The notes beneath the pieces are model-generated. The model was not told where the DNA came from, made no database searches, and saw only the letters and a program-made list of their open reading frames with translations. From positions 1-30,758 of IMG/VR virus record IMGVR_UViG_3300046467_001746: DNA of 30,758 bases. One strand, given 5' to 3'. This DNA comes from a virus. Both the position numbers and the translations under genes were made by a program. Shown here piece by piece: positions 387-17,199 of the stretch (position 1 is its first letter; each line of letters begins with the position of its first letter).

Positions 387-2987
387 TTATTTTTGAGGAC
401 AAGGAATGATAGCGACACAAGCTGGGCCATTTTCATCATCGCCGCCTGTTAACTTTTTAATATCCAATTCCACTTTTACATCTATTGGACTTCCTTTGTA
501 AACCATTTCTATTTCAGGATCTTCAGGCATTTTAAGTTCAATTACAGATGGTATATCCCCTGATAATTCTATTGTGCTTGGAATACCTACAACTTGAATG
601 GTATCAGGAATATCAGTAGCATCTAGTTTTATAGAAGTTGGAAAATCATGAGACGTTTCTAAAATAATTGCCGCCGGTAAATTAGGAGCAATTAACTCAA
701 TCGCAGAGGGAACATTGATGGCATCAATGTTTATTGATTTAGGAACATCTTCCGCAATAACCTTGATTTCAGAAGGCAATGGTATTTCGGGTCCGATTAT
801 GCTTATATCTGGAATATTAGGCGCCACAACATTTATCTCTGCGGGTAGATCATGCATAATTCTAACATTTGGAAGATCCGTTGGGGCAATTATCTTAATT
901 ACTGACGGGATTCCAATATCTCCCGTTTCAAGAATTATGTTCTCGTCTTCCTGCATGCTGTCTTCAAAATCATTTGCATAGATGTTATCACTGTAGCCCA
1001 TCCCTCGGAATGCTGAGGAAGCCGAACTTGATGGGCACTGAATGGTGACTACACAACTGACCGTTGGCGGAGTCCCCCAGCAAACGCTGACACAGGGAGC
1101 AGGGCCAAAAGAAATCGGCCCTAAAGATGGTGCATCACCGAACTCGATCTTTGTTGGGATAAATGGTGCATCACCGAACTCGATCTTTGTTGGGATAAAT
1201 GGTGCATCACCGAACTCGATCTTTGTTGGGATAAATGGTGCATCACCGAACTCGATCTTTGTTGGGATAAATGGTGCATCACCAAACTCGATCTTTGTTG
1301 GGAAATCTGGTGCAGGCCCAAATCCAATTGGAGAGAAACTAGGTGCAGGCCCAAATCCAATTGGAGAGAAATCTGGTGCAGGCCCAAATCCAATTGGAGA
1401 GAAATCTGGTGCAGGCCCAAATCCAATTGGAGAGAAATCTGGTGAAGGGCCAAAACCAATTGGGGTGAAGTTTGGTGAAGGGCCAAAACCAATTGGGGTG
1501 AAGTCTGGTGCAGGGCCAAAACCAATTGGCGAGAAACTAGGTGCAGGGCCAAAACCAATTGGCGAGAAGTCTGGTGAAGGGCCAAAACCAATTGGGGTGA
1601 AGTCTGGTGAAGGGCCAAAACCAATTGGTGTAAGACTAGGTGCAGGCCCAAAACCAATTGGTGTAAGACTAGGTGCAGGGCCAAAACCAATTGGTGTAAG
1701 ACTAGGTGCAGGGCCAAAGCCAATTGGTGAGAAACTAGGTGCAGGCCCAAAGCCAATTGGTGAGAAACTAGGTGCAGGCCCAAAGCCAATTGGTGAGAAA
1801 CTAGGTGCAGGCCCAAAGCCAATTGGTGAGAAACTAGGTGCAGGCCCAAAGCCAATTGGTGAGAAACTAGGTGCTCCAGTAATGCTAATTGGAGTGAACG
1901 TAGGCCCAGTAATGCTAATTGGAGCGAAACTAGGCCCAGTAATGCTAATTGGAGTGAACGTAGGCCCAATAATACTGATTGGAGCAAACGTAGGCCCAAT
2001 AATACTGATTGGAGCAAACGTAGGCCCAGTAATGCTGATCGGAGTGAATGTAGGTCCAGTAATGCTGAAAGGAGATAGTTGAGCGGGAGGAATGTCAATA
2101 TCTATACTAATGACCGATAAATCAATTGGGCCGATATCCAAACAAGGAAAAACTATAGGGGGTATTCTTGTTTCTACGGTTATGTCCTCGCATATTGACG
2201 GAACATTTAAAGATGGTATTGGCGGAATGTTGGGTATTGGTATTATGAAATCTTCATCTGGTGGTGGTTCTTCATAATTGCCCGGAGATTGTATTATTTC
2301 GCATTTACCATTTTTTACAATAAGAACAGGGTTTGCTAATCTATTTGTTGCATAAAAATGTGTCCCCTCAAGTTCAGTTGACGTGAATGTTCCATCTCCA
2401 AAATCCAATTTGTATTCTTGATACGTTCCTTGTATTTCAACCAAGAACTCTGCCGTATATCCTGCTGCCTCAGTGCCGGATTGTATGTTAAAAGTAAAAG
2501 TTATGTCTGGGCATAAATGATCATCAAATATAACAGGAATTGCTTCTAAATTTCTTATCCTCCAATCTACTGTTTCGATGTCAGTATTAAATTGAAATCC
2601 AACAAATTCTTCCACATTCAATATTGCATCTACTAATTGATTGTGATGTTCCGCAACAACAAATCCTCTTACATATTTTCCCGCTGGTACGAAATGTGTT
2701 TTTTTGCCACCTAAGTTTCTAGCGCATCTTTTTAATTTATATATTTTACCGTTTGAGTTTGTTTCAACAGAATCATAATATAAAAGTTCTCCTTCAATAT
2801 TTGCAAATCCATTAACTGGCCAAACTTCTGTTTCGCCGGATTCAACAGGTGTAATCTCTATATCTTCAGACCAAGCTGGATTGTCAGCGACCAACTTCGC
2901 TTCCGTTGTATTGTAAACAAGAAACAATGTGAAATCATTGTCAATTGCAAAAGGATAAACTGGATTTGGTGGGTAGCCTACAGTCAA
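387..2987 (-). CDS. Giant short-repeat tail fibre/adhesin with shared N-terminal attachment domain
   Basis: 866 residues, starting at TTG, chosen because AGGAAG lies five bases upstream and no in-frame start fits better. Residues 1-145 form the N-terminal domain shared with the next two genes upstream; its hallmark is VAEHHNQLVDAI with HHN at 114-116. Residues 160-230 contain a PKD-like beta sandwich with LDFGDGTF at 194-201. A proline-rich linker (about 238-305) follows. Then come six 10-residue units (311-370), seventeen 11-residue units (372-558) and five 12-residue units (559-618). A cysteine-bearing spacer (630-660) leads to twelve degenerate units of 9-12 residues (about 693-818), and a short C-terminus ends CVAIIPCPQK. 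The likely role is an elongated virion fibre, with the N-terminus anchored to the baseplate and the repeats forming a beta-rich shaft. Function is inferred from architecture and context; no enzymatic motif is seen. Confidence 0.8.
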   Translation of the reverse strand: MTVGYPPNPVYPFAIDNDFTLFLVYNTTEAKLVADNPAWSEDIEITPVESGETEVWPVNGFANIEGELLYYDSVETNSNGKIYKLKRCARNLGGKKTHFVPAGKYVRGFVVAEHHNQLVDAILNVEEFVGFQFNTDIETVDWRIRNLEAIPVIFDDHLCPDITFTFNIQSGTEAAGYTAEFLVEIQGTYQEYKLDFGDGTFTSTELEGTHFYATNRLANPVLIVKNGKCEIIQSPGNYEEPPPDEDFIIPIPNIPPIPSLNVPSICEDITVETRIPPIVFPCLDIGPIDLSVISIDIDIPPAQLSPFSITGPTFTPISITGPTFAPISIIGPTFAPISIIGPTFTPISITGPSFAPISITGPTFTPISITGAPSFSPIGFGPAPSFSPIGFGPAPSFSPIGFGPAPSFSPIGFGPAPSFSPIGFGPAPSLTPIGFGPAPSLTPIGFGPAPSLTPIGFGPSPDFTPIGFGPSPDFSPIGFGPAPSFSPIGFGPAPDFTPIGFGPSPNFTPIGFGPSPDFSPIGFGPAPDFSPIGFGPAPDFSPIGFGPAPSFSPIGFGPAPDFPTKIEFGDAPFIPTKIEFGDAPFIPTKIEFGDAPFIPTKIEFGDAPFIPTKIEFGDAPSLGPISFGPAPCVSVCWGTPPTVSCVVTIQCPSSSASSAFRGMGYSDNIYANDFEDSMQEDENIILETGDIGIPSVIKIIAPTDLPNVRIMHDLPAEINVVAPNIPDISIIGPEIPLPSEIKVIAEDVPKSINIDAINVPSAIELIAPNLPAAIILETSHDFPTSIKLDATDIPDTIQVVGIPSTIELSGDIPSVIELKMPEDPEIEMVYKGSPIDVKVELDIKKLTGGDDENGPACVAIIPCPQK
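522..917 (-). repeat. Twelve degenerate 9-12-residue repeats in the fibre C-terminal region
   Basis: Within the 866-residue fibre, residues about 691-822 repeat the pattern hydrophobic-P-x-x-I-x-[LIV]. Examples are IPSVIKI, LPSEIKV, VPSAIEL, FPTSIKL and IPSVIEL. The conserved prolines fall at 694, 706, 715, 726, 738, 749, 760, 771, 783, 794, 803 and 813. The pattern is the same as the IPTKIEF core of the perfect 12-residue units, so these look like an older, diverged part of the same repeat lineage. Confidence 0.7.
1134..1313 (-). repeat. Tandem 36-bp units (12 residues), five copies
   Basis: Five units encode APDFPTKIEFGD once, then APFIPTKIEFGD four times. The four APFIPTKIEFGD units are nearly identical in DNA as well as protein, indicating recent expansion or gene conversion. 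All changes keep the reading frame. Confidence 0.95.
1314..1874 (-). repeat. Tandem 33-bp units (11 residues), seventeen copies
   Basis: Seventeen units follow the pattern [AS]-P-[SDN]-[FL]-[ST]-PIGFGP. Sub-blocks of identical DNA units (for example five consecutive APSFSPIGFGP copies, three APSLTPIGFGP copies) show stepwise local duplication. No stop occurs in several frames of either strand, which produces long spurious antisense frames here. Confidence 0.95.
1878..2057 (-). repeat. Tandem 30-bp units (10 residues), six copies
   Basis: Six exact 10-residue units follow GP[TS]F[TA]PISI[TI]. A degenerate unit (QLSPFSIT) sits just before the first. The transition to the 11-residue block is an extra glycine at residue 371. 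Confidence 0.95.
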
Positions 2988-3036: not shown

Positions 3037-5409
3037 TTAATAAATTTCCATTTGCCACTGTGTCCCTGTTGGTCTGCTTCCTAAAGACTTAAATGTTAAA
3101 TCTGTTTCGTTAAATGAGACGAATGCTTTTGAACTGTAATCGAAGCTCAAATATGCCTTTCTATCTCCATCTGATGTTGCCAGAAGAGTATTGGTGGTAT
3201 CGCCAAATCCCGTAACGCTTGTATCTTGCAAGGACACAAAAGAAGTGGCCAAAGATTGCCCAGTCTCCCAAACATCTGATACATCATTATAAACAGATAT
3301 TGCACTAGAATTATCAAAGAAATATAGTCCAGATGTAAGAGGAACCAATTGGCCTTCATACTTTACAGTTCCTGGCATGTCCGTTAATTTCCTGATCATT
3401 TGCACAGGATCACTTGTCACTCCTTCTGTTCGGTAGAAACTTTTTAATCGGAATGTAGCGCCAACTCCATCATTTCTGATTATGTATCCTGTATTGTTTT
3501 TATAAGCTGTTCTATATGCACTAAAATGCCCATGGTTGATTTGTCCGGCTCCATCAAATGATGCTACATTATTTTTTAATTCCTCTGCGCCGTTCTTATA
3601 ATTTGAATCTGCAAACGTGGATGATGACGAACTCAAAGTTGTTAGATTTCTCTTAACAAGTGATTGATTTGTTAAAGACTCCCAAGCGGCAGAGTCGGTC
3701 ACGCCTAAGAAAAAATAAATATCTTCGAGAGCATTTAGGCCAATCCAATTCCACTGTCTGTTTAGTTTTGCGGGACAGTTTGGCTGCACACAGTAAGTTC
3801 CCTGAAATGCATTATATGTCAAAAAATCAATGCCTTCTGTTGTGTTAGCGGCTTCAGGCGTCCTTCCAGTGGCCCAATAAAGAATTGCATCTCCACTATT
3901 TCCAGATGTAGCTGCTGTTCTTTGTGCCATTCCATTGTTTCGATCAAATTCTCGCACCAATTGCTCCGAGTTGGCAACTTGGTGCGACTCCGTGTCTACT
4001 AAAAAAGAATTATCTATATTTAGTTGTTTTATAGGAGCAGGCTCTGTTTTAAATGTTTCTGATAAAAGACCGAATTCATAAGATCTTACATCAGTCGAAG
4101 AACCCGCAGAATAATTCCAAAGCCACAAATTTACATCCTCTACTACGTCAATAACATTAGGATATTGTGTTATTCTATAAGAATTTAAATCTGTGTCTGT
4201 TCGAACTATAGCATCATATAACCCTCCGATGCTATACGCTGCTCGTGCAGTTCTGTTGTTGGAATGTGTTAAATCATCACTTAAAGACCATGTGTAAGAC
4301 GTTACGGGATCAAGAGGATCATCATTGCCGTCAAGGGTTTCTCCCGAATAGGATTTGCCTGTGGAATTATTTTTCCCAGCCCCGATTTGAATGTCTACAA
4401 TGGTGCCAACTTTGGTTTTTAGAATAGGCGGGAAATTTGTTGTGAAGTCAGGAGGCACTACAGGGGTCGTTCCTTCGAGTCGATCCTGTCCGCTGTATCT
4501 GTCATGATGGAAAAATAATTGTCCTGCTCGTGGACGCAAGTCTATAATTGCTTCGTCAGGAGCCTCAATTCGGGCATAGATGTATCCGGGTAATTCTAAA
4601 ACATCGCTACCCATGTCATTTTTAACAGTCAGGGAAACATCGTACTTTCCTGGCACGAAATAAGTCTTCTTAATCTTCCCCCCGTCAGTATCCTTTACAA
4701 TCACATTGACATCTTCTTCGTTTTCGTCCCATTCCTCTCCAGGGGACAGCAACCCTGGCACTTCGTCAGTAGCCGAGATGGTAGAAACTAATGATAAATT
4801 TGTTTGATCTCCAAAGTCCCATGTGTAATTTATATCACCTGTGGTTCCATCTGTTCCGAGTTGAAAACTAAGTTCATTAAATTCTACGGTAAAAGGAACT
4901 ATTCCTGTTGTTCTGTCGGATGTGAACCATACCCTCGGCCTTAGAACCAATCTCCTGAGGAAATTAATTCGTCCTTCCATGGTTTCCCCCAATGGTTTCT
5001 TATCAACAGTTCCTTTTATCCCAACAAATTTTTCTATTGCAATAACTGAATCTTTTATTTGATTGTGGTGGGATGCCATTACATTTTGGGTGACGTTGGT
5101 TATTTTTTTAGACTTAATAACATCTTTGAATCCAGGCAATATCTCTAAGCCAGAAAAAACACTGTCTACTTTAGAACTATAAAAAAACGATATGGCTCTT
5201 TCATCTGGTTCGCTACATTGTTCTGTTAAAGTGATCAAACCACTGGTGGGGAATTTAGAAAGAGCCAAAGCATCGTTTGTAACGGTTATGCTCTTGTCCC
5301 CAGGTTTATAATCTTCTGTGAGTTTCACCCTCGCAGAATCATGCACTTCATATAAATTTGTGCTATCATCAAGTGTGTCGGGGTAATTGCTAGAACTAGG
5401 TATTGTCAT
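3037..5409 (-). CDS. PKD-domain tail fibre/adhesin, 790 aa, with C-terminal receptor-binding-like region
   Basis: The ATG is preceded by GGTGA at a spacing of seven, 13 bases after the upstream paralogue. Residues about 15-135 match the shared attachment domain: FPTSGLITL, a diverged middle, then VMASHHNQIKDSV with HHN at 114-116. A PKD fold follows (about 160-280) with INYTWDFGDQ and the closing strand YFVPGKYDVSLTVKNDMG. A second PKD-like sandwich (about 340-430) contains SYTWSLSDDL and YSIGGLYDAIV. The remaining 350 residues are rich in serine, threonine and aromatics. They include LYFFDNSSAISVYNDVSDVW and LLATSDGDRKAYLSFDYS, suggesting beta-propeller-like or other all-beta blades. PKD domains are common in surface adhesins; the C-terminal part is the best candidate for receptor contact. 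The adhesin role is inferred from architecture and location. Confidence 0.8.
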   Translation of the reverse strand: MTIPSSSNYPDTLDDSTNLYEVHDSARVKLTEDYKPGDKSITVTNDALALSKFPTSGLITLTEQCSEPDERAISFFYSSKVDSVFSGLEILPGFKDVIKSKKITNVTQNVMASHHNQIKDSVIAIEKFVGIKGTVDKKPLGETMEGRINFLRRLVLRPRVWFTSDRTTGIVPFTVEFNELSFQLGTDGTTGDINYTWDFGDQTNLSLVSTISATDEVPGLLSPGEEWDENEEDVNVIVKDTDGGKIKKTYFVPGKYDVSLTVKNDMGSDVLELPGYIYARIEAPDEAIIDLRPRAGQLFFHHDRYSGQDRLEGTTPVVPPDFTTNFPPILKTKVGTIVDIQIGAGKNNSTGKSYSGETLDGNDDPLDPVTSYTWSLSDDLTHSNNRTARAAYSIGGLYDAIVRTDTDLNSYRITQYPNVIDVVEDVNLWLWNYSAGSSTDVRSYEFGLLSETFKTEPAPIKQLNIDNSFLVDTESHQVANSEQLVREFDRNNGMAQRTAATSGNSGDAILYWATGRTPEAANTTEGIDFLTYNAFQGTYCVQPNCPAKLNRQWNWIGLNALEDIYFFLGVTDSAAWESLTNQSLVKRNLTTLSSSSSTFADSNYKNGAEELKNNVASFDGAGQINHGHFSAYRTAYKNNTGYIIRNDGVGATFRLKSFYRTEGVTSDPVQMIRKLTDMPGTVKYEGQLVPLTSGLYFFDNSSAISVYNDVSDVWETGQSLATSFVSLQDTSVTGFGDTTNTLLATSDGDRKAYLSFDYSSKAFVSFNETDLTFKSLGSRPTGTQWQMEIY

Positions 5410-5422
5410 TTATTTTCACCAA

Positions 5423-6496
5423 TTAAGATATAATAATTGAATCCTCTAAAAAAACACGTTTTAATTTTCCACTAGAAAATATAATGATTACGTTGACATC
5501 ATATGTGCCTGGCGAAGCATATGTGTGTTTAATGGTATGTTTATTAGGATCATAAACACTGTCTTGCGTTGTATCATCAAAAACCCAATGTCTTTCTGTG
5601 ATGTTTCCATCTGTTTGATCTACAAATGTAAATTCCGTTGCTGTAGTGGAATTCAAAGTAGCTGTTTCTTCTGAAACTCCAACTATTGAACGAACGCACG
5701 CATTGGCGACGATCTTGCAGGAATAGAAAAAAGCCTCCGTTTCCTCTTTGTCCACAACAATGTAATTGTTTTTAGTTGTAGCCGCTTGTTCGCCTAATAA
5801 TGTCATCATATTTAATTTGACAGTATAATTGCCTTCAGCGGTATAAGTGTGAACTGGGGACATTTCGGTGGAACTAGATCCGTCCCCAAATTCCCACAAG
5901 TATCTAATGGGAGGGCCTCCTGAAAAATTAGCAAATTTAACTTTCAAAGGAGGTGCACCAACAACGGGATAGGCTCTAAATGATGGTTTGGGACCAAGAA
6001 ATCTTTCTTCTTGCTTTTTAAGTATTTGGTTTAAAGATCCTCCAACTCCCACTGGTGATATATCATCGTTGGGGGTGGTTTTTATTCCTAAATCAGTTTC
6101 TATATTAATTATTGCATCTTTTATAGAATTATGGTGCGAAGCCATTACTGCGCTTGTGATATTGGAACCCAAAGGCCATTGCCCCCTGATGGAACCAGCA
6201 AAACCTCTTATGGTGTCTTTGAATGTGTTTGTTGTTTTTTTTCCATAATAAATTAATTCATGATTTCCGGCCTCACCAACTTTGGTGTTTCCAATCCTTA
6301 TTATCCCTGTGTTGGGGAAAGATGATGTACTTTCTACCACTATATTTTTAGCGGTATAAACAACTGACTGAGAAACTTTTGTTTCTCCATTGTTTTTAGC
6401 TTCATATAATATATCTTTGTCGTCTTTTACTATGGGAAATAAAGATAAATCTCCTGTTTTATATCCCGTGGTGAAAGAAGAAACTTGATCAGCCAT
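5423..6496 (-). CDS. Two-PKD-domain virion protein, 357 aa
   Basis: The ATG overlaps the end of the coiled-coil gene by eight bases, with AGAGGAC upstream as ribosome-binding site. Residues 25-140 form the shared attachment domain: SFPNTGIIRIG, ELIYYGKK, FKDTIRGFAG, then VMASHHNSIKDAIINIE with HHN at 121-123. PKD domain 1 is at about 172-248, with the signature YLWEFGDGSSST and closing TYTAEGNYTVKL. PKD domain 2 is at about 285-357, with RHWVFDDTT and HTYASPGTYDVNV. It is the shortest and most canonical of three adjacent paralogues and contains little beyond the attachment domain and the PKD pair, so it may be an adaptor or a short fibre. It is a structural role by inference; no catalytic motif is visible. 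Confidence 0.85.
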   Translation of the reverse strand: MADQVSSFTTGYKTGDLSLFPIVKDDKDILYEAKNNGETKVSQSVVYTAKNIVVESTSSFPNTGIIRIGNTKVGEAGNHELIYYGKKTTNTFKDTIRGFAGSIRGQWPLGSNITSAVMASHHNSIKDAIINIETDLGIKTTPNDDISPVGVGGSLNQILKKQEERFLGPKPSFRAYPVVGAPPLKVKFANFSGGPPIRYLWEFGDGSSSTEMSPVHTYTAEGNYTVKLNMMTLLGEQAATTKNNYIVVDKEETEAFFYSCKIVANACVRSIVGVSEETATLNSTTATEFTFVDQTDGNITERHWVFDDTTQDSVYDPNKHTIKHTYASPGTYDVNVIIIFSSGKLKRVFLEDSIIIS

Positions 6497-7228: not shown

Positions 7229-7789
7229 ATGAATAGACTTAAAAATACCAGGGTGTATTTGTGTGGAGCAATGGATCGAGTTCCTGACGGGGGAACCGCC
7301 TGGAGAGATGAAATAACTCCTTTGCTGGAAGACAAAGGGGTCATTATCATTAATCCATGTAAAAAACCAATAGACGTAGGAATTGAGGACAGTGTTGCTA
7401 GAGAAAAAATAGAAACATACAAAAGAGATGGCGATTTTGATAAAATTAGACCCGAATTTGGAGTAATTAGAACCGTAGACTTAAGATGTGTAGATATATC
7501 GGATTTTATAATTGTAAATATTGATATAAACACTCATGCATGTGGAACATATGAAGAAATCACCGTGGCCAATAGGCAGAAAAAACCAATTTTAATTTGG
7601 TGCACCCAAGGTAAAGAACATACCCCAAACTGGTTGTTCTTCATGTTGCCACACCAACATGTTTTTGGGAATTTAGAAGACTTAATGCATTATTTGAATA
7701 ATATAGACACCTGCGAAGGTGAAATCGATCATTGCAAAAGATGGTTCTTTTTTAATCAAAAGTTTAAAAAATCTGATACCCAAGTATAG
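7229..7789 (+). CDS. Nucleoside 2-deoxyribosyltransferase-like protein
   Basis: 186 residues, the only plus-strand gene here. Members of this Rossmann-like superfamily transfer or cleave the deoxyribosyl group of nucleosides or nucleotides. Visible signatures are the first strand and loop VYLCGAMD (9-16), a tryptophan at 25 in a following helix, VDLRCVDISDFIIVNID (83-99, typical of the D-x-S-D-hydrophobic-strand motif), and GTYEE (106-110), which carries the glutamate position used as nucleophile in the family. The length suits the family. The start has only a weak AGAAG-type site upstream. The gene converges on the glycosyltransferase-like gene and overlaps its end by 26 bases, without an obvious terminator. 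A nucleotide salvage, base-modification or NAD/nucleotide-related counter-defence role is possible; the substrate cannot be read from sequence. Confidence 0.8.
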   Translation: MNRLKNTRVYLCGAMDRVPDGGTAWRDEITPLLEDKGVIIINPCKKPIDVGIEDSVAREKIETYKRDGDFDKIRPEFGVIRTVDLRCVDISDFIIVNIDINTHACGTYEEITVANRQKKPILIWCTQGKEHTPNWLFFMLPHQHVFGNLEDLMHYLNNIDTCEGEIDHCKRWFFFNQKFKKSDTQV

Positions 7790-9136: not shown

Positions 9137-9670
9137 CTAGTCAAATAGTTGTTTAAGTAAACCTAAATTATATAGGTCATGAGATATAAAGGTTTCCCAA
9201 CTATCTATGGAGCCTTTATCCTCTTCTTTATATTTATCAGTCCACCTCAATATCTTATTCCATGGATCTCCATAATATCCAAGGACTTCTTCATCTTTAT
9301 TTATATCTTTAATTACCCGATATAGGATTGGCCCCGCAGCGGGGTTCTTCTTTTTATAGTTTTTATATAATGAATCTTTAATGAATTCTATTTCAACGTT
9401 TTGTTCTTTTTGGTCTATGGCATGATTTATAATTGCGGCAAATCCCATAGGAACGATTTGATGAGTTATTTCCTCATTTGATGCAAATTTATATTTATTA
9501 GCGTATTGAGTACAAGCGTGGGCAGTTGAATCCGATTTAACCATTACTCCGATTATCTCTAAATAATTGCCTTTTTGTATTTTTTTTTGGGAAAATACAC
9601 CAGAGCCAGCGCCTTCAATGGAAGAATCTTTAATATAAAATCTAGGGTCAGTTTCACTTATAATAATCAT
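9137..9670 (-). CDS. SET-domain protein lysine methyltransferase-like
   Basis: 177 residues; the ATG shares one base with the upstream stop, with AGGA eight bases before. SET enzymes transfer a methyl group from S-adenosylmethionine to lysine side chains. All main landmarks are visible: GAGSGVF at 20-26 (the G-x-G cofactor loop), a following KGNYLEIIG strand, INHA at 81-84 (N82-H83 of the 'N-H-S/A' motif), and KDEEVLGYYG at 125-134 with the catalytic-type tyrosines Y132/Y133. There is no cysteine-rich post-SET segment; the C-terminus is a charged helix ending LGLLKQLFD. Size fits minimal viral SET proteins such as chlorella virus vSET. No histone substrate is expected in a bacterial host, so a virion or host protein is the likely target. 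The surrounding fibre genes favour a virion target, by inference only. Confidence 0.85.
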   Translation of the reverse strand: MIIISETDPRFYIKDSSIEGAGSGVFSQKKIQKGNYLEIIGVMVKSDSTAHACTQYANKYKFASNEEITHQIVPMGFAAIINHAIDQKEQNVEIEFIKDSLYKNYKKKNPAAGPILYRVIKDINKDEEVLGYYGDPWNKILRWTDKYKEEDKGSIDSWETFISHDLYNLGLLKQLFD

Positions 9671-9938: not shown

Positions 9939-10415
9939 TTAAACAAATGACAATCGCCAATTCCACGTAATTTGCATGGATGAAGTTTTAGTGAGGTCAG
10001 GAAAAGTAACCATGCTATATAAATCACCATTGTTCATTTGAAGAGCCATTTCGCTCAATGCATATCCATTGGCTTCTGTGAAGGTTAAAACAGTGGTGAA
10101 AATAACTTGAGTTGTAGCATTAGGATCTACTGTAGCAAGCACTCCTTTGTTGGCACGAGTTACTCCGAAAAGGCCATTGACTGAATCAGTTACAAATTTA
10201 GGGGAATCTCCTTGTGTTCCTCCATCCCCAAATAACATCCTTGATATAAAAAAATCATAAGTATCACCTACTACATTGGCAAGAGAATTTGCTAATGCCT
10301 GTCTACCCTTTAATAGAACTGTATTGCTGAAATTGACGGTCTTATCGGGACGACCATCATCATATGTGATGGTCATTTCCACTTCGCCCTTGGTTCTTAT
10401 TTTATCTTTGTTCAT
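9939..10415 (-). CDS. Tail-fibre/baseplate-peripheral protein, 158 aa
   Basis: The ATG shares one base with the stop of the wedge gene (TAATG), with AAGGAGAC about nine bases upstream. The sequence begins with a short strand (GEVEMTITYDD), a helix (LLKGRQALANSLANVVGD) and then DFFISRMLFGDGGT. It continues to a beta-rich C-terminus, ANGYALSEMALQMNNGDLYS, MVTFPDLTKTSSMQITWNWR. The last part resembles the '(Y/A)-x-E-(I/M)-(G/A)-L...G-L-(F/Y)...T-K-(T/P)-x-x-x-x-(I/M)-x-(I/L)-x-W-x-(I/L)' ending of proteins encoded right after gpI in contractile tails, which link fibres to the baseplate. This fits its position directly after the gpI-like gene. Function is inferred from pattern and synteny. Confidence 0.6.
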   Translation of the reverse strand: MNKDKIRTKGEVEMTITYDDGRPDKTVNFSNTVLLKGRQALANSLANVVGDTYDFFISRMLFGDGGTQGDSPKFVTDSVNGLFGVTRANKGVLATVDPNATTQVIFTTVLTFTEANGYALSEMALQMNNGDLYSMVTFPDLTKTSSMQITWNWRLSFV

Positions 10416-13400
10416 TAAATGTTGTCTCCTTCAATTTCTTCATCGTCAGCCCATTCAATTTCTAATGTGATGTTTTCTTCTTGTGATATAGGCTCTTTAA
10501 TTTGGTCATCAGTTGCATTTAAAGCCTCTGCTGCAAAGGCTGCAAAAGGAGCAGCGGTATCTATATTTAGGGATATCACTTCATTTCCTCTTCTATCAAT
10601 AAAATTAAAATCATGTCCTAAGTACTGATAACCTGCTGGTTGCACATATCGTAATCCATCAACTTCTGTTTCTCCTCCATACCCAGCTTTAGGTTGTATG
10701 GAAATGTTTTCTTTAGAATATTTTAAAATAGAATATGTAACTGAAGTTCCTCCACTAACTTTCCAACTTTCTTCTGGACCATCAACATTTATTGTGGTAC
10801 CATCTATTCCTGTTACTTTATAATAGTTTGATCCAATTAACACTAAAAAGTTTTCTTTAAACAGATTGTCATCAACTACTGTGGCAGGGGGATTTGAGCC
10901 ATTAACTATGCTTAACCCCGTTTCGTGATTAGAGGATGTTACAATTTTCATGCCTCTATAATCCACATATCCGGCTTCTGAATCAACTAATCTTTTATAA
11001 ACATTAAAACTCTGCCCAGAGGCATCTCCAGCAGTATATCCACTTATATAAAATTGATAGTCTTGTGAGTCAACAAATCCTATTATTTTATATTCAGTTC
11101 CACTTAATACAAAATAATCACTTGTGTCTGCTACATCTCTAATGTCATTCGCACCACCCCCAGAAGGAGAGGAGTCAGTTATCTTGGCCCTTCTACTTAT
11201 TGCAAGACTTCCATTGGCGCTAGAAGACACATGATTGTTGCTATCATCTAAAATATTATAAGACAATGAAGATGAATTGCTTTTTGGCAATGCCTCAGTG
11301 GGGTCGTTGAGGATAAGACTGCCATCTGACAATATGTTGGATATGGTATATATCCCATTTGAAAATCCCGACTCTGTTATTTGCACTTTCCATGCGGTTC
11401 CTGTATAGGACGAGTCATTGTTGTCATCCCAATCTGTTTTTATTCCTTTTTCTATGAAATCAACCGTTGTATCACTAAATGCAAAAACATCATCTTGCTC
11501 AATAGCGGCTGTTCCTGAATAAGAATCATTTGATAACCTAAAAGTAAAAGATGATGTGTTTAAAGGCTCAGTTATACCAGATATATTGGCCATATGAGTG
11601 TCTGGACTGGTAATGCTATAATTTCCCGCATTCGCAGAAGGAGACAATATCTTTAAAACATTGGAACTTGTATCTAAAGGTAATAAGTCGAATCTTACAT
11701 CAGGTGCGTAGATTATTATATTGTCATTAAACCCAGTTGCAGATTGACTTGATACTTCTGTGGTGGAAAAAGCAAGCATGTTTCTTTTTACAAATCCAGA
11801 AGAAGTTGTGGGAGAACCATTGACAAAATCAGTTTTTGACATGCCTGCCGTGCCGCTGTCTGTCAAAACAACTGTTGTGTTTCCGGCGTCTCCACTATCG
11901 GATTGTATAATTGTGACAACAGCCCCGTATACTGAGGCCACAAATCTGTTGGTTGAATTACCAGCTTGATATGCATTAATGAGTGTCGCCAAGGCTTCTG
12001 CGGCGTCGGAATTTGAACTTCCAGGATTCCATCCGCTTCCATCGGTGGCCGCAGTAAAATCAATATCTACTGTTGGCGACGCCGTCGTCCTGAGCGTCAC
12101 TTTGTCACCTGCATTGAGTTCGCTATAATCAGTAACTGTTACGGTCGCAGTGGCCCTCGTGCCCGATGTGAACGCATTGTCAAACATTGCTCGGAAAAAG
12201 ACTTTTTGTTGATTTCCAGATAATACGTTTTCAGTAATAGAATATTTTACTGTCCCCTCTAAATTCTCTATTGGGGATAGAACAAATTCATTGAATCCAC
12301 CGGAAACATTTACTTGGTGCAGCACAGAATGAAATGGAGTATATTCTTCAATAATAGATTCTGCTTCATTGATTCTGTCTGTGGAGAGATCCTTTATTTC
12401 TAAATCTAAATTAAATTTGCTGCTTTGACAATATTGGCATTTGTCAACAAAATTCTTATCTAAATGGCACGGATCAGTGGAATCTCTTAAGCTACCATTA
12501 TATTCTTCCATGTTATAAATATTTTCACTATAAGGGAACTCTGTCCTTATTTTCCCATAGAACACAGGATCGTGAAAAGGATGCCGATCAGGTATTAGGA
12601 CATCAAAAAGAGCGTCATCTTCTTCAATTAGTCTAACGTTCCAATTTTTGGGCGGATAATCTTGTAAAGTCTCATCACGTTGATCTGCTAATGGTAAAGA
12701 TCTTGTGTAATTTTCTTTTACTTGTTCGGCTGAACTGGGAACGTTAACAACTTCATATAATATTTTTACAAAATCCCCTTCAGCCAATGTTATTGGACTA
12801 GATGAAAGCAGATGACCCACCCAAGTCATCGTGGTTTCTCCTTCTGAAGTAGAAAAAGAAACATGATCATCTGTTAGCTCTGTATAAGATGATGACCCTT
12901 TTAGTCTTCTAAATATGCTGGTATTAGCTGTGCTGCCGCCTGTAAAATTTGTCTTAGTCATACCGGCAGTGCCGGTATCTGCAAGGGTGACTGTTGTGTT
13001 TCCGTCCGCCCCCGAAGTGCTTTGCGAAATAGTAACAACCGCTCCAACTGCCGAGGCAGAAAATCTAGATCCAGAGGGTCCGCCGCTTGTGTTGATGACA
13101 TTAGCTAAATTTGTAGCAGTTTGATTATTGCTTGCGTCGGACTCCCAGGTGCCACTTGTCGAACTTTGATTTCCATTTATGAAATCATAATTAGTTCCAT
13201 CAGTAGCAATTAAATTAACTGCGTCACCTGAATTAAGTTCGGTAAAGTCAGTAATTGTTACTGTTGCATTGGCGGCTTGCGGATCGTCCACACCACCAGT
13301 GAAGTCTGTCTTGGTCATACCGGCAGTGCCGGAATCTGTGAGAGTGGCTGTTGTGTTTCCGCCCGACCCCGAAGTGCTTTGCGTAATAGTAACAACCGCT

Positions 13401-15112
13401 CCAACTGCCGATGCAGAAAATCTGGTTCCAGATGGCCCACTGCTCGTGTTAATGACGTTCATCAAATTTGTAGCAGTTTGATTATTGCTTGCGTCGGACT
13501 CCCAGGTGCCAAGTGCCGAATCTTGGCTTCCATTTACGAAATCATAGTTAGTTCCGTCAGCAGCAATTAAATTGACCTTATCCCCTGAATTAAGTTCGGT
13601 AAAGTCAGTAATTGTCACTGTCGCAGTGGCGGGAAGTGCCCCATCGCTTGTGTGTCCCAAAGCCACTTTTTCTAATATAAATTGAGTTTGATCTTTGGCT
13701 ACTTTAAACGATTCTTGCCAAGTATATGGAGAAGTTATTTGCCACAACCTTGTAGTTTTTTTAAGCTCCATGTCTGCTTGTATTAAAGCTTCCTTTAAAC
13801 TTCCTCCAGTGCCTTTTCGCTTGAACAAAGGAACCGCAGTTTTTATTTGCCTTCTCCACAACGTTGGATCGTCGGATTTAAGCCTCAAATTAAACATGTT
13901 GCTTAAAAGATTTAGTAAAGATTCATGAGTTGAATTGGCATCCATTAAATCAACAGCTTGATTGGCCATATCTTCTACAAATGTAAATCCTTTGGCTATC
14001 GCTTTATGAAATTTATCTAATGTATCAGGAGTAACATCCGCTTCAGACAGTTTGGATTTGTATACATCAGGAAGATATCTTTCTAACAAAGTTGTATACT
14101 TTTCAGGGTTAGTAAAGTGAGTAGGAATACTAGTTGTTAATACAGTACTTCCTTCTAAATTGAACTTTAAAAAGGATGAAATTGAATCTCCGGCAGCATT
14201 AGGAGTCCATGTCCAACAAACGACGTAATCTCCTTCACGACTTTGAACAGGATTCCAATTATATTTAAAATTACCGAATTGATTATTTCCATCTGCATCT
14301 AACGGTACGTTTTCAATAAAAGCATTATCTGTATCTGTTGAAAGCCAAGCGGGATTGCTCTCATCTCCTAAGACTTTAACAGGGACAAGTTCGCTGTAAT
14401 AATTCGAACTTTTGTTAGTAGTCTCATTTAGTTCGGTTTTTAGTCTTTCAACTTCTTTTAATTGATCTTTTGTAGGGAGGCCACCAATAAAGTCTGTTTT
14501 AGACATACCTGCGGCATCAGGGTCAGTCAAAACAATAGTTGTGTTTCCATCAACACCAGCATCAACCTGCGTTATCGTCACTACTCCATCATTCTCATCA
14601 TTGTCAACAGTAGCAGTTAATTTAGAATTGGCATTTAAACATGTTGCTAAGTTAGCGGCAGTAGAGTGATCGCTGCCATTAACTATTGCCCAAGTTGGCG
14701 AGTTTGTATCAGTATTTGTAGTGGCTCCTCCATTTGCTGTAACTGTTGCCGTTATTGTAGTTCCGTCAGTCGTAGTAATGGTAATGTAATGAGTGGTTGC
14801 CACCAAATTTGCTGCGTCAGTAATAGTAACTGTACCTGTCGCATGCGAATAAACACATGCAATGGCTTTGGCTTTTTCATATTCCGCTAAAACTTTAGGG
14901 TCTAGATGGTTTTCTTCAAAAATAAAGGGAGTCCCTGAAAAATGGTTTCTCCCTAAAGAATATATTGTAACCTTATCAACTTTATATGGATTTGAAATAA
15001 AGCATTCGTCTGCCCCTGGCGCAAGGAGTTCTATAGATACAATGTCTGCTATTGTTGGACTTTCTTCCAACTTTTTTATTTTTTGATTACTACTAGTTTT
15101 ATTTATAGACAT
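10415..15112 (-). CDS. gpI/gp7-like baseplate wedge protein, 1565 aa, with four inserted beta domains
   Basis: Begins five bases after the J-like gene. The core relating it to P2 gpI and, by role, T4 gp7 is at about 338-451: LLERYLPDVYKSKL, then FTFVEDMANQAVDLMDA, then LWRRQIKTAVPLFKRKGTGG and SLKEALIQADM. In contractile tails this protein pairs with two J/gp6 subunits to form each wedge. It is several times larger than P2 gpI. Part of the excess is four copies of a roughly 110-residue beta domain with the signature TVTITD...LN-GD, TATNL..VIN, AVVTI-Q-.SG--GNTT, GM-KTDF-GG. They lie at about 91-212, 492-605, 611-724 and 982-1101. Their flanks read as continuous helix or sheet, suggesting loop insertions. 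Residues 1105-1565 form further beta-rich domains. A single uninterrupted frame supports one intact protein. Confidence 0.82.
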   Translation of the reverse strand: MSINKTSSNQKIKKLEESPTIADIVSIELLAPGADECFISNPYKVDKVTIYSLGRNHFSGTPFIFEENHLDPKVLAEYEKAKAIACVYSHATGTVTITDAANLVATTHYITITTTDGTTITATVTANGGATTNTDTNSPTWAIVNGSDHSTAANLATCLNANSKLTATVDNDENDGVVTITQVDAGVDGNTTIVLTDPDAAGMSKTDFIGGLPTKDQLKEVERLKTELNETTNKSSNYYSELVPVKVLGDESNPAWLSTDTDNAFIENVPLDADGNNQFGNFKYNWNPVQSREGDYVVCWTWTPNAAGDSISSFLKFNLEGSTVLTTSIPTHFTNPEKYTTLLERYLPDVYKSKLSEADVTPDTLDKFHKAIAKGFTFVEDMANQAVDLMDANSTHESLLNLLSNMFNLRLKSDDPTLWRRQIKTAVPLFKRKGTGGSLKEALIQADMELKKTTRLWQITSPYTWQESFKVAKDQTQFILEKVALGHTSDGALPATATVTITDFTELNSGDKVNLIAADGTNYDFVNGSQDSALGTWESDASNNQTATNLMNVINTSSGPSGTRFSASAVGAVVTITQSTSGSGGNTTATLTDSGTAGMTKTDFTGGVDDPQAANATVTITDFTELNSGDAVNLIATDGTNYDFINGNQSSTSGTWESDASNNQTATNLANVINTSGGPSGSRFSASAVGAVVTISQSTSGADGNTTVTLADTGTAGMTKTNFTGGSTANTSIFRRLKGSSSYTELTDDHVSFSTSEGETTMTWVGHLLSSSPITLAEGDFVKILYEVVNVPSSAEQVKENYTRSLPLADQRDETLQDYPPKNWNVRLIEEDDALFDVLIPDRHPFHDPVFYGKIRTEFPYSENIYNMEEYNGSLRDSTDPCHLDKNFVDKCQYCQSSKFNLDLEIKDLSTDRINEAESIIEEYTPFHSVLHQVNVSGGFNEFVLSPIENLEGTVKYSITENVLSGNQQKVFFRAMFDNAFTSGTRATATVTVTDYSELNAGDKVTLRTTASPTVDIDFTAATDGSGWNPGSSNSDAAEALATLINAYQAGNSTNRFVASVYGAVVTIIQSDSGDAGNTTVVLTDSGTAGMSKTDFVNGSPTTSSGFVKRNMLAFSTTEVSSQSATGFNDNIIIYAPDVRFDLLPLDTSSNVLKILSPSANAGNYSITSPDTHMANISGITEPLNTSSFTFRLSNDSYSGTAAIEQDDVFAFSDTTVDFIEKGIKTDWDDNNDSSYTGTAWKVQITESGFSNGIYTISNILSDGSLILNDPTEALPKSNSSSLSYNILDDSNNHVSSSANGSLAISRRAKITDSSPSGGGANDIRDVADTSDYFVLSGTEYKIIGFVDSQDYQFYISGYTAGDASGQSFNVYKRLVDSEAGYVDYRGMKIVTSSNHETGLSIVNGSNPPATVVDDNLFKENFLVLIGSNYYKVTGIDGTTINVDGPEESWKVSGGTSVTYSILKYSKENISIQPKAGYGGETEVDGLRYVQPAGYQYLGHDFNFIDRRGNEVISLNIDTAAPFAAFAAEALNATDDQIKEPISQEENITLEIEWADDEEIEGDNI
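11810..12165 (-). repeat. Inserted beta-domain copy 4 in the wedge protein
   Basis: Residues about 982-1101: TVTVTDYSELNAGDKVTL, AAEALATLINAYQAG, AVVTIIQSDSGDAGNTTVVL and GTAGMSKTDFVNG. Clearly homologous to the other three copies in protein, diverged in DNA. It separates FFRAMFDNAF from GFVKRNMLAF, which look like adjacent strands. Confidence 0.85.
12941..13636 (-). repeat. Near-identical tandem beta-domain copies 2 and 3 in the wedge protein
   Basis: The DNA at 12941-13277 and 13299-13636 is highly similar over its whole length, with a period of 357 bases (119 codons). Long exact runs are shared, for instance around the codons for ESDASNNQTATNL. This indicates a recent in-frame tandem duplication. 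Differences are mostly silent or conservative. Confidence 0.92.
14477..14842 (-). repeat. Inserted beta-domain copy 1 in the wedge protein
   Basis: Residues about 91-212: TGTVTITDAANLV, TAANLATCLNANS, GVVTITQVDAGVDGNTTIVL and AGMSKTDFIGG. It interrupts two helical stretches, DPKVLAEYEKAKAIA before and KDQLKEVERLKTELNE after, that would otherwise read as one charged helix or hairpin. Confidence 0.8.
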
Positions 15113-15117
15113 TTTTA

Positions 15118-16674
15118 TTACTCAAAAGTAAATGTTAAAGTAATGGTATCAGGTCGAATAATTTCGTAATATTTAGTAGTTACTAATGAGCCTGAATTGT
15201 CAGCATCATCTGTTGTAAATTCAACGGAATAACTGTTAATTTGTTTGATGTCGGCAATATCTTTAATTAAATTAGTTTCTTTAAGATCATCTCCCATTTC
15301 CCAACGACTCAAAGAAAAGAATTCATTGACTCTATTTAAAACTCTTTGGCGGTATTCATCAACAAATTTCTTATAAAACTTATCTACAGAGCAATCAATT
15401 GTCACATCAACAAGCAAAACGTCTCCGTCACGTATGCAAACAAAGTCTGTGAACATTTTCTTTTCATCAATTTCTTCATTTAAAGCAATTTTAAGTCCTT
15501 CTGAAGAGTCTTCTAGCGATATCTCTCCTGATCCTCTGGATAAAATATATAAGTCAACTATATTTCCTGCGCATCCATGATTCCTAAGAATAGATGTTGC
15601 CTTTCCCACTTGCCCATTTGCGCCAGTAACAAATTGTTCAGCGATAGTTTTATAATCTAGACCAGTGACGGCTCTGTTTTGAGTTCTTAAATAAGGAGGC
15701 AATTTTCTTCTAATGTCTTCAATTGTATCTCCTGCAAATCCGTATTTTCCATTGCTGTAATTTCTAAAGGTTATAGGGATTGAATGATTTAACCCTGGCA
15801 CAGGGAAGTTAGTTTGGTATTCTACAAATCCAGCAATTATATTACCTATCGTTCCCCCGCCAGTTCTATAGGTGACTTTTATTTCAGATGCCGAAGAGGG
15901 TATCATTCCGGCTCGATTGTTTCCGAAAATGATAAATCCATTAAATTCAGAATCATATTCAAAAATATACTCTCTTCTGGGGTTAGAATCTGTAAAATAA
16001 TCCACTTCCGTCCATCGCACCCCATCCACATCAACACGAATTGAATCAAATATTACAGACCCTTCAGTAAGCGATATAGTCTGTCCTACTGCTCCGTCGC
16101 CAACAAATATGTCAGCTACAGTTTTTCCTTCAACACCAACTATGTTGGCGTTAACCACATCCCCCGCAGAGACAATAATATTATCGTCATAAATAGGGTT
16201 GTTATTTGAATCGGCTGGAAACAACTCAATTCTGATCGGACTTCCATCTGCCACTGTGTTAATAGCCAAAGGAGTAACGATTGATAAGTCAGTGGTTAAA
16301 GGACTAGTAAGGCTTCCCGTCCACCTAGAAGCAGCCCCAATTGGGCCAACTGGTTTTAAACCTATTAATTTAGACAACCTGAAAGCATTTTCTACCTCTG
16401 TGACTGTGTCGATGAATAATTCATTTACTATTTGATCCATTTTGAAAGAAAGAGTGTCCGCTAAAAACGCCCAGTTTTCAATTAGCATCATTGCTAAAGA
16501 TGATTCTACAAAATCTGAGAAGTCATCTTCAAAATTTTGTTTGATATAATCAATCAACCTAGTTTTTAATGACCAAAAATCTTGACTAGTATAGTTAAGA
16601 TTGAAAATAGGAGGATTTTTAATCAGTTCCGATTCACCAATAGGTGCTGCATCTCTTAGACAATTGTCAGGCAT
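15118..16674 (-). CDS. Baseplate wedge protein, gp6/gpJ-like
   Basis: 518 residues, ATG with AGGAG about ten bases upstream. J/gp6-type proteins form the wedge ring around the hub. Features seen: an N-terminal helical part with FWSLKTRLIDYIKQNFEDDF and AMMLIENWAFLADTLSFKMD (about 30-85), including the characteristic 'L..(Y/W)..D.L.F..D' stretch; a central beta domain with VTYRTGGGTIGNIIAG; and RAVTGLDYKTIAEQF (about 333-347), the 'R-x-V-T-x-x-D-Y' motif common to baseplate J proteins. The C-terminal third carries the expected 'VDVTIDCSVD' strand and following helix. It sits between the gp25-like and gpI-like genes, the standard order. Length is usual for large-phage J proteins. Confidence 0.9.
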   Translation of the reverse strand: MPDNCLRDAAPIGESELIKNPPIFNLNYTSQDFWSLKTRLIDYIKQNFEDDFSDFVESSLAMMLIENWAFLADTLSFKMDQIVNELFIDTVTEVENAFRLSKLIGLKPVGPIGAASRWTGSLTSPLTTDLSIVTPLAINTVADGSPIRIELFPADSNNNPIYDDNIIVSAGDVVNANIVGVEGKTVADIFVGDGAVGQTISLTEGSVIFDSIRVDVDGVRWTEVDYFTDSNPRREYIFEYDSEFNGFIIFGNNRAGMIPSSASEIKVTYRTGGGTIGNIIAGFVEYQTNFPVPGLNHSIPITFRNYSNGKYGFAGDTIEDIRRKLPPYLRTQNRAVTGLDYKTIAEQFVTGANGQVGKATSILRNHGCAGNIVDLYILSRGSGEISLEDSSEGLKIALNEEIDEKKMFTDFVCIRDGDVLLVDVTIDCSVDKFYKKFVDEYRQRVLNRVNEFFSLSRWEMGDDLKETNLIKDIADIKQINSYSVEFTTDDADNSGSLVTTKYYEIIRPDTITLTFTFE

Positions 16675-16701: not shown

Positions 16702-17199
16702 TTAATCATCTGCATTCACTATGGCTACATCTTGTGATGCGACCGAAACGTCATTGTTTATAGACAAGTTAGCTGATGTACTAGTCCCACTCAGTGGAAG
16801 TTGTAAAACTAATTCTTGTACATCCAATATGTCTTCAGGATCAAAGAATGCAATTCTAATACTCAAGATTGCTCCCTGTTCAGTTAAATCATCATGTTTA
16901 TCTAGACTATCTTGTTCCAATCCGTTAGTTACTTCTATGGCATCTACTGTTATTCTAGGCTCCCAATCAGTAATGGATTGAATAATCATGCCCCTCGCAG
17001 CAGAAATTAGTTCCTGATCGTTTTGTTCAAACATTAACGTTCTTAAAGGAGTCCCATATGTGGGCATAAAAACTCTTTCTCCAGGATTAGTTAAAAGTAA
17101 AGACAATAGATCCGCCTTAATTTGATCTATACCACTTTGAGTATGTAACAAACCCTTGGCATCGGGAATAATCGGATATGGCATGCCTTTAAATTTCAT
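16702..17199 (-). CDS. gp25/gpW-like baseplate wedge protein
   Basis: 165 residues. gp25-like proteins connect the baseplate wedges to the sheath and trigger contraction. The N-terminal 110 residues are a textbook match: GLLHTQSGIDQIKADLLSLL (16-35), TNPGERVFMPTYGTPLRTLM (37-56) and the EPR-type motif WEPRI (79-83) before VDAIEVTNG. A longer than usual C-terminus (about 120-165, LVLQLPLSGTSTSANLSINN) adds some 40 residues of low complexity. The start is ATG with GAGAGAT upstream, 34 bases after the spike gene. Despite the old 'lysozyme' name for this family, no catalytic residues are expected. Confidence 0.95.
   Translation of the reverse strand: MKFKGMPYPIIPDAKGLLHTQSGIDQIKADLLSLLLTNPGERVFMPTYGTPLRTLMFEQNDQELISAARGMIIQSITDWEPRITVDAIEVTNGLEQDSLDKHDDLTEQGAILSIRIAFFDPEDILDVQELVLQLPLSGTSTSANLSINNDVSVASQDVAIVNADD

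Follow-up and report, generated by a model that had tools for sequence, protein, structure and literature searches.

A domain of about 113 residues, present in four copies at three sites of a phage baseplate wedge protein, was also found, inserted in frame, in at least 18 unrelated phage protein families besides the wedge. To judge from the sequences, phage proteins, many of them virion parts, have this domain in common as a mobile building block, and we are highly confident that it has been inserted into, and has spread among, such proteins. The window, that is the whole stretch of DNA analysed, consists of 30,758 bases of an IMG/VR virus record and bears the tail region of a myophage.

A wedge protein with four copies of one domain

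The carrier found in the window is a protein of 1565 amino acids, which matches Pfam Tail_P2_I at residues 366-472 with 24.9 bits (cut-off 20.6), and directly upstream of its gene lie those of the gp25 and gp6/J types, in the order W-J-I. Because of this match and of the genes preceding it, the protein is placed in the position of gpI, as rightly proposed by the initial annotation, which had described a gpI/gp7-like wedge protein. The three genes and the features found within the carrier are listed below, by positions in the window.

10415..15112, minus strand: gpI/Tail_P2_I-type baseplate wedge protein, the carrier, 1565 aa (open reading frame; Pfam Tail_P2_I)
15118..16674, minus strand: gp6/gpJ-type baseplate wedge protein, neighbour (phrog_219, E 2e-24)
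16702..17199, minus strand: gp25/gpW-type wedge protein, neighbour (Pfam GPW_gp25, E 2e-17)
14480..14842, minus strand: copy 1, aa 91-211, at site 1, between core residues C86 and P213 (HMM 3e-29)
13292..13630, minus strand: copy 2, aa 495-607, at site 2 (HMM 5e-50)
12935..13273, minus strand: copy 3, aa 614-726, in tandem with copy 2 (HMM 9e-48)
11816..12154, minus strand: copy 4, aa 987-1099, at site 3 (HMM 3e-35)
11858..12112, minus strand: interior of copy 4, aa about 1001-1085, replaced relative to L005, the closest wedge relative (amino acid identity)
13682..13687, minus strand: empty fourth site, between T476 and Q477, holding a fifth copy in L005 (anchor spacing)

The four copies match each other pairwise (phmmer E 2e-7 to 5e-53), while no match was obtained in any of 1000 shuffles of the wedge protein, used as a control. 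At the DNA level copies 2 and 3 agree at about 86% of positions along 300-340 nt, and the copy edges share 72-75% identity across all four. Similarity, shuffles and DNA repeats concur in showing that the four copies at three sites are real, and the limits first assigned to them agree with those of the HMM within a few residues. Their contribution to the unusual length of the protein, initially thought to be partial, is in fact larger: the stretch between the anchors (aa 86-1110) spans 1023 residues in the window and about 530-570 in most homologues, and nearly all of this excess is accounted for by the copies.

Relatives of the wedge protein were found on contigs of up to 527 kb, as well as on one 595-kb uncultured phage record, which makes it probable that the window derives from a very large myophage. 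Among its virion genes lies one for a SET-domain protein (9137-9670, minus strand; PF00856 above cut-off), and an opposite-strand gene within the tail region (7229-7789, plus strand) resembles nucleoside 2-deoxyribosyltransferases (PF05014, just under cut-off). Downstream of the wedge, two adjoining proteins (3037-5409 and 5423-6496, minus strand) feature PKD domains, apparently a second kind of accessory domain in this region. A protein of 866 amino acids (387-2987, minus strand) contains a long run of a repeat of about 11 residues, GPAPSFSPIGF and variants, followed by FGDAPFIPTKIE; because of the repeat, long frames are open on either strand (1042-2082, plus; 1121-2098, minus).

Filled and empty sites, and the history of the copies

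A search with the whole wedge protein returned 79 loci; 45 wedge proteins were aligned, and site occupancy was taken as the number of residues between conserved anchors in this alignment. Homologues are far from always carrying all copies: 41 to 43 of the 45 hold 0-32 residues per site, with 0-27 residues at site 1 (41 of 43 homologues), 14-17 at site 2 (43 of 45) and 9-32 at site 3 (43 of 45). Within the alignment, stretches of 122-254 residues occur at these sites only in the window and in L005, a relative about 90% identical in the wedge and lying on an independent contig; a sensitive search of the wedge homologues with the domain likewise found copies in L005 only. In L005 all four copies recur, with the frame open as in the window, along with a fifth one at a fourth site, where the anchors are 139 residues apart, versus 12 in the window; in 43 other homologues, as in the window, 11-13 residues lie there. 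At this site the window and L005 are a natural pair of empty and filled alleles.

The comparison with related phages, suggested by the initial annotation, thus revealed alleles lacking copies at the same sites and keeping intact flanks. These flanks, together with the fifth copy found in L005 only, argue for the insertion, at separate places in the wedge, of a domain that folds by itself, as had been supposed. The accompanying claim, that the flanks would form continuous secondary structure upon removal of a copy, holds in part: homologues without copies do keep their flanks intact, but those of site 1 are two helices connected by a tight C-x2-P turn, and not a single continuous helix. A model of wedge residues 1-1130, which is poor (pLDDT 63.5, pTM 0.38) because only two alignment rows cover the inserts, places helices at aa 72-89 and 215-231, flanking copy 1, and is consistent with insertion of this copy in the turn between them.

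The same comparison bears on two other explanations. An assembly chimera or a misread frame might be feared in a metagenomic contig, such as the window record, but the independent contig L005, where all four recur without a break in frame, refutes it for the shared sites, and its overall probability is negligible. It is also very unlikely that the copies are ancestral to the wedge and were lost in most homologues: parsimony counts alone cannot separate gain from loss, but all other homologues are devoid of copies and feature short, conserved joins (0-32 residues), so that loss would have to be both precise and repeated; moreover, the domain is also found in 18 unrelated families, and the wedge copies fall in separate starred branches along with copies of other carriers.

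The four copies do not, however, form a single set of duplicates. Copies 2 and 3, which share 84% of their amino acids, are closer to their positional counterparts in L005 (90% and 92%, respectively) than to each other, and their duplication therefore predates the split from L005: the description of the two as tandem duplicates is confirmed, also by their DNA identity, but 'recent' is to be taken in a relative sense. Copy 4 shows 95-100% amino acid identity to L005 in the core flanks and 25-65% inside, where about 80 residues are unalignable; such an interior, between near-identical flanks, has therefore been exchanged. The extra copy of L005 has copy 1 as its nearest relative, with about 80% identity in DNA along 314 nt and a starred branch in common (100/93). 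Its last residues are 'GGLP', and the P is equivalent to P213, a core residue next to site 1 that hardly varies; this hints at its having been copied out of site 1, two residues being weak evidence. In the domain tree, copy 1 and copies 2-4 lie in separate supported branches, each including copies from other carriers, so that the wedge protein either received the domain at least twice or holds two anciently separate lineages. Copy 1 is a member of a different subfamily, on a starred branch, and the interior of copy 4 is a replacement.

Spread across carrier families

A profile built from the four copies, as the initial annotation had advised, was searched against the proteins of viral loci and identified 61 loci containing the domain. 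Relatives of the carriers added further copies and, upon removal of near-identical ones, 71 distinct copies were obtained, belonging to 19 carrier families, the wedge included; families are defined by the absence of similarity outside the domain at E 1e-5. All carriers are metagenomic, and most are fragments. No wedge relatives were found among the other carriers by a profile of the domain-free wedge. Many carriers appear to be virion parts, a nature that is shown only for some, including the following.

L100: tail sheath (phrog_23)
L098: T7-type tail protein (phrog_376)
L134: beta-helix tail spike
L142: probable head-tail adaptor (phrog_211, match to the C-terminal part only)

Several other carriers are encoded directly after gp25/gp6-type genes, in the same place as the wedge of the window. 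The 'GNTT..F-GG' modules, which the initial annotation mentioned for other virion proteins, do occur there; the proposal of a domain spreading within baseplate genes was correct as to the spread but too narrow, since sheath, T7-type tail protein, spike and adaptor are also involved.

Empty alleles exist in the T7-type tail protein and in the sheath as well as in the wedge. The domain found in L098 is replaced by a short join in L207, L209 and L210; among sheaths, L112 holds the domain at a place other than in L108 and L120, and no domain match was found in Microcystis phage Mel-JY01, to which the L100 sheath comes closest among cultured relatives. The T7-type tail protein of L209 (751-4194), in which the L098 site is empty, features divergent tandem relatives of the domain elsewhere (..TTVGTAGNTAIT..TSFTGG), with weak HMM matches. 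In L117 (2903-5284) a further stretch of about 200 residues, absent from relatives, ends in TTFTGG and is possibly a distant member of the domain family. The 1218-aa carrier of L138 (5557-9210, G032) contains five tandem domain matches. The contig on which it lies measures 85 kb and is, after L005, the closest to the window in tetranucleotide profile (0.93), and the C-terminal part of the carrier is related to proteins of 546-602 aa from large phages with a domain-free wedge; L138 may be another part of a sibling of the window's phage.

Domain identity between families has a median of 65% and a maximum of 91%, and among the 146 pairs of carriers that are directly similar to each other, identity is 75% in the domain, as against 40% in the carriers. 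The domain tree requires 33 changes of carrier family, versus a minimum of 18 and a mean of 48 upon shuffling of the labels: movement between carriers is frequent, but not free, the labels being still clustered with respect to the shuffles.

Copies 2 and 3 show 77-81% DNA identity, over 330-357 nt, to copies found in the unrelated carriers L152, L153 and L096, and the matches run close to the limits of the domain itself. Identity at four-fold sites is 0.56-0.79 with these three, against a median of 0.33 with other families; such high values, over the domain alone, point to a comparatively recent exchange, confined to the domain. An origin of L096 from the window's own phage was considered and rejected, its tetranucleotide profile being unlike; a search run with no positive control found no wedge match on the L096 contig. 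Most between-family pairs are saturated at four-fold sites, indicating that most movements are old, with a mechanism no longer visible. Between families, no clear gradient of four-fold-site identity toward the domain edges, expected under edge-driven recombination, was observed, and no dedicated mobility gene for the domain was identified.

We infer that copies of the domain are exchanged in frame and that it spreads in this way, most of these events being old and some recent. The DNA encoding one copy would recombine with a different virion gene or with a further copy, and survival would be limited to insertions that keep the frame and fall at exposed turns; in-frame recombination between copies would thus be accompanied by occasional capture at new exposed turns. 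That the DNA of the domain is a precise in-frame cassette, moved by a recurrent mechanism through its own conserved edges, seems improbable; if this were true, the domain would be a mobile element at the protein-domain level, and not the product of rare chance recombination.

Fold and possible role of the domain

The structure predicted by AlphaFold2 for copy 2 alone, from 55 aligned copies (pLDDT 96.8, pTM 0.90), features strands around a 12-residue central helix, and the domain is accordingly predicted to fold independently. Its top structural match in PDB is the A-1(L) tail sheath, residues 91-185 (Z 10.8, rmsd 2.0, 91 residues). Matches include sheath insertion domains (Z 6.6-10.8), T7-type tail proteins (Z 9.0-9.4), FliD and flagellin (Z 7.2-8.6) and T4 gp11 (Z 6.7), along with baseplate J-like, major tail, sheath and capsid proteins among predicted viral structures. 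These values, in the range 7-11, are only modestly above the best background Z of 7-8. The domain profile and the A-1(L) sheath gave an hhalign probability below 1%, with a single-sequence template that makes this a weak comparison. Since a Z of 7-8 is common in the background and sequence homology is undetected, common descent with the sheath insertion domain is put forward as a hypothesis. Only chance-level matches, none naming the domain, were obtained with Pfam, PHROGs and NCBIfam models, and its sequence profile matched nothing in PDB. Copy 2 found no relative in cultured phage records (a weak absence, the query being a single sequence), while a consensus query produced a weak match (E 0.9) to tail tubular protein B of Pelagibacter phage HTVC010P; short peptide patterns found no relatives in genome contigs, again a weak absence.

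Ig-like domains on bacteriophage virion proteins, reportedly described by Fraser et al. in 2006, are said to be accessory, horizontally exchanged and promiscuous. The domain described here shares with them the accessory character, the horizontal exchange and the presence on diverse virion proteins, but differs in its fold, in lying inside its carriers and in being often present in several copies at different sites. It is highly improbable that it is itself an ordinary phage Ig-like domain, as might be suggested by its similar size, beta-rich composition, insertion in virion proteins and the antibody domains found in the Foldseek list: its predicted fold includes the 12-residue central helix, Ig chains superpose at 6-10 A rmsd (TM 0.24-0.35), compared to 2.0-3.4 A for sheath insertion domains, and Pfam Ig families match none of 55 copies.

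The predicted fold appears similar to that of the sheath insertion domains of XM1, A-1(L), Milano, Mu and PhiTE. These sit in the N-terminal half of the sheath, and carriers L100, L108 and L120 hold the mobile domain in a comparably N-terminal place; sheath insertion domains, however, have been described for one protein, whereas the present domain spans 19 carrier families, identity between them reaching 91%. The XM1 domain resembles FliD D3 (PMC10457771); our domain matches FliD D3 and flagellin D2-D3, from bacterial flagellar proteins, over about 100 residues with 11-18% identity at most, a likeness which may reflect just a common arrangement. Sheath accessory domains lie away from the tube, and adhesion or stabilising roles have been proposed for them (PMC9230969). 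A-1(L) gp31 is also a wedge protein with an insertion domain of about 100 residues, which contacts the hub, fits its cleft and holds the long tail fibre (PMC10966104); the A-1(L) wedge is made of two gp31 and one gp32, which are different proteins, and gp31 is likened here by its insertion, not as a gpI relative. Domains common to otherwise unrelated phage proteins, including baseplate and tail ones, were reported by Smug et al. 2023 (PMC10684548), whose survey used known ECOD domains, whereas the domain described here is without a Pfam, PHROGs or NCBIfam model.

A role like that of the insertion domains of sheaths and of the A-1(L) wedge is proposed here: each copy would be an extra, independently folded surface outside the tail or baseplate, and would weakly contact the host surface or neighbouring virion parts, apart from core assembly, this being the least certain step. 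Surface decoration, as initially suggested, is plausible from the fold and from the solved sheath insertion domains, and insertion, spread and outward accessory role are, taken jointly, probable.

Which contacts would be made is a matter for tentative proposals. Each copy might bind host glycans, adding weak affinity for the cell surface, as has been suggested for Ig-like domains of phages and for accessory domains of sheaths (PMC9230969); outer domains of the flagellar cap and of flagellin show a similar fold, and the carriers include proteins that face outward, among them tail spike and sheath, although carbohydrate-binding families gave no match. With comparable likelihood, the domain might instead connect virion parts with one another, for instance by anchoring fibres, folding them back or cementing neighbouring parts: the insertion domain of the A-1(L) wedge, which holds the long tail fibre and fits the hub cleft (PMC10966104), and T4 gp11, which joins baseplate and short fibre and is found among the structural matches, speak in favour, while the carriers have no common neighbour and the closest phage differs in copy number. 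That the domain is close to neutral and spreads by itself wherever exposed turns tolerate it is rather unlikely: copy number and site do vary between phages about 90% identical, and dN/dS is higher in copies 1-3 (0.19-0.32) than in the core (0.14), but these values are well below 1, the copies being under constraint, and the sequence is conserved across unrelated carriers.

Phage tail accessory domains are usually described one structure at a time. Here, sheath, tail, spike, adaptor and baseplate proteins from numerous uncultured phages are connected by a single unnamed domain of high conservation; with a family model, annotation would no longer link unrelated proteins through the domain, and the near-identical wedge pair, with and without a copy, would be a ready-made test of the role of such domains.
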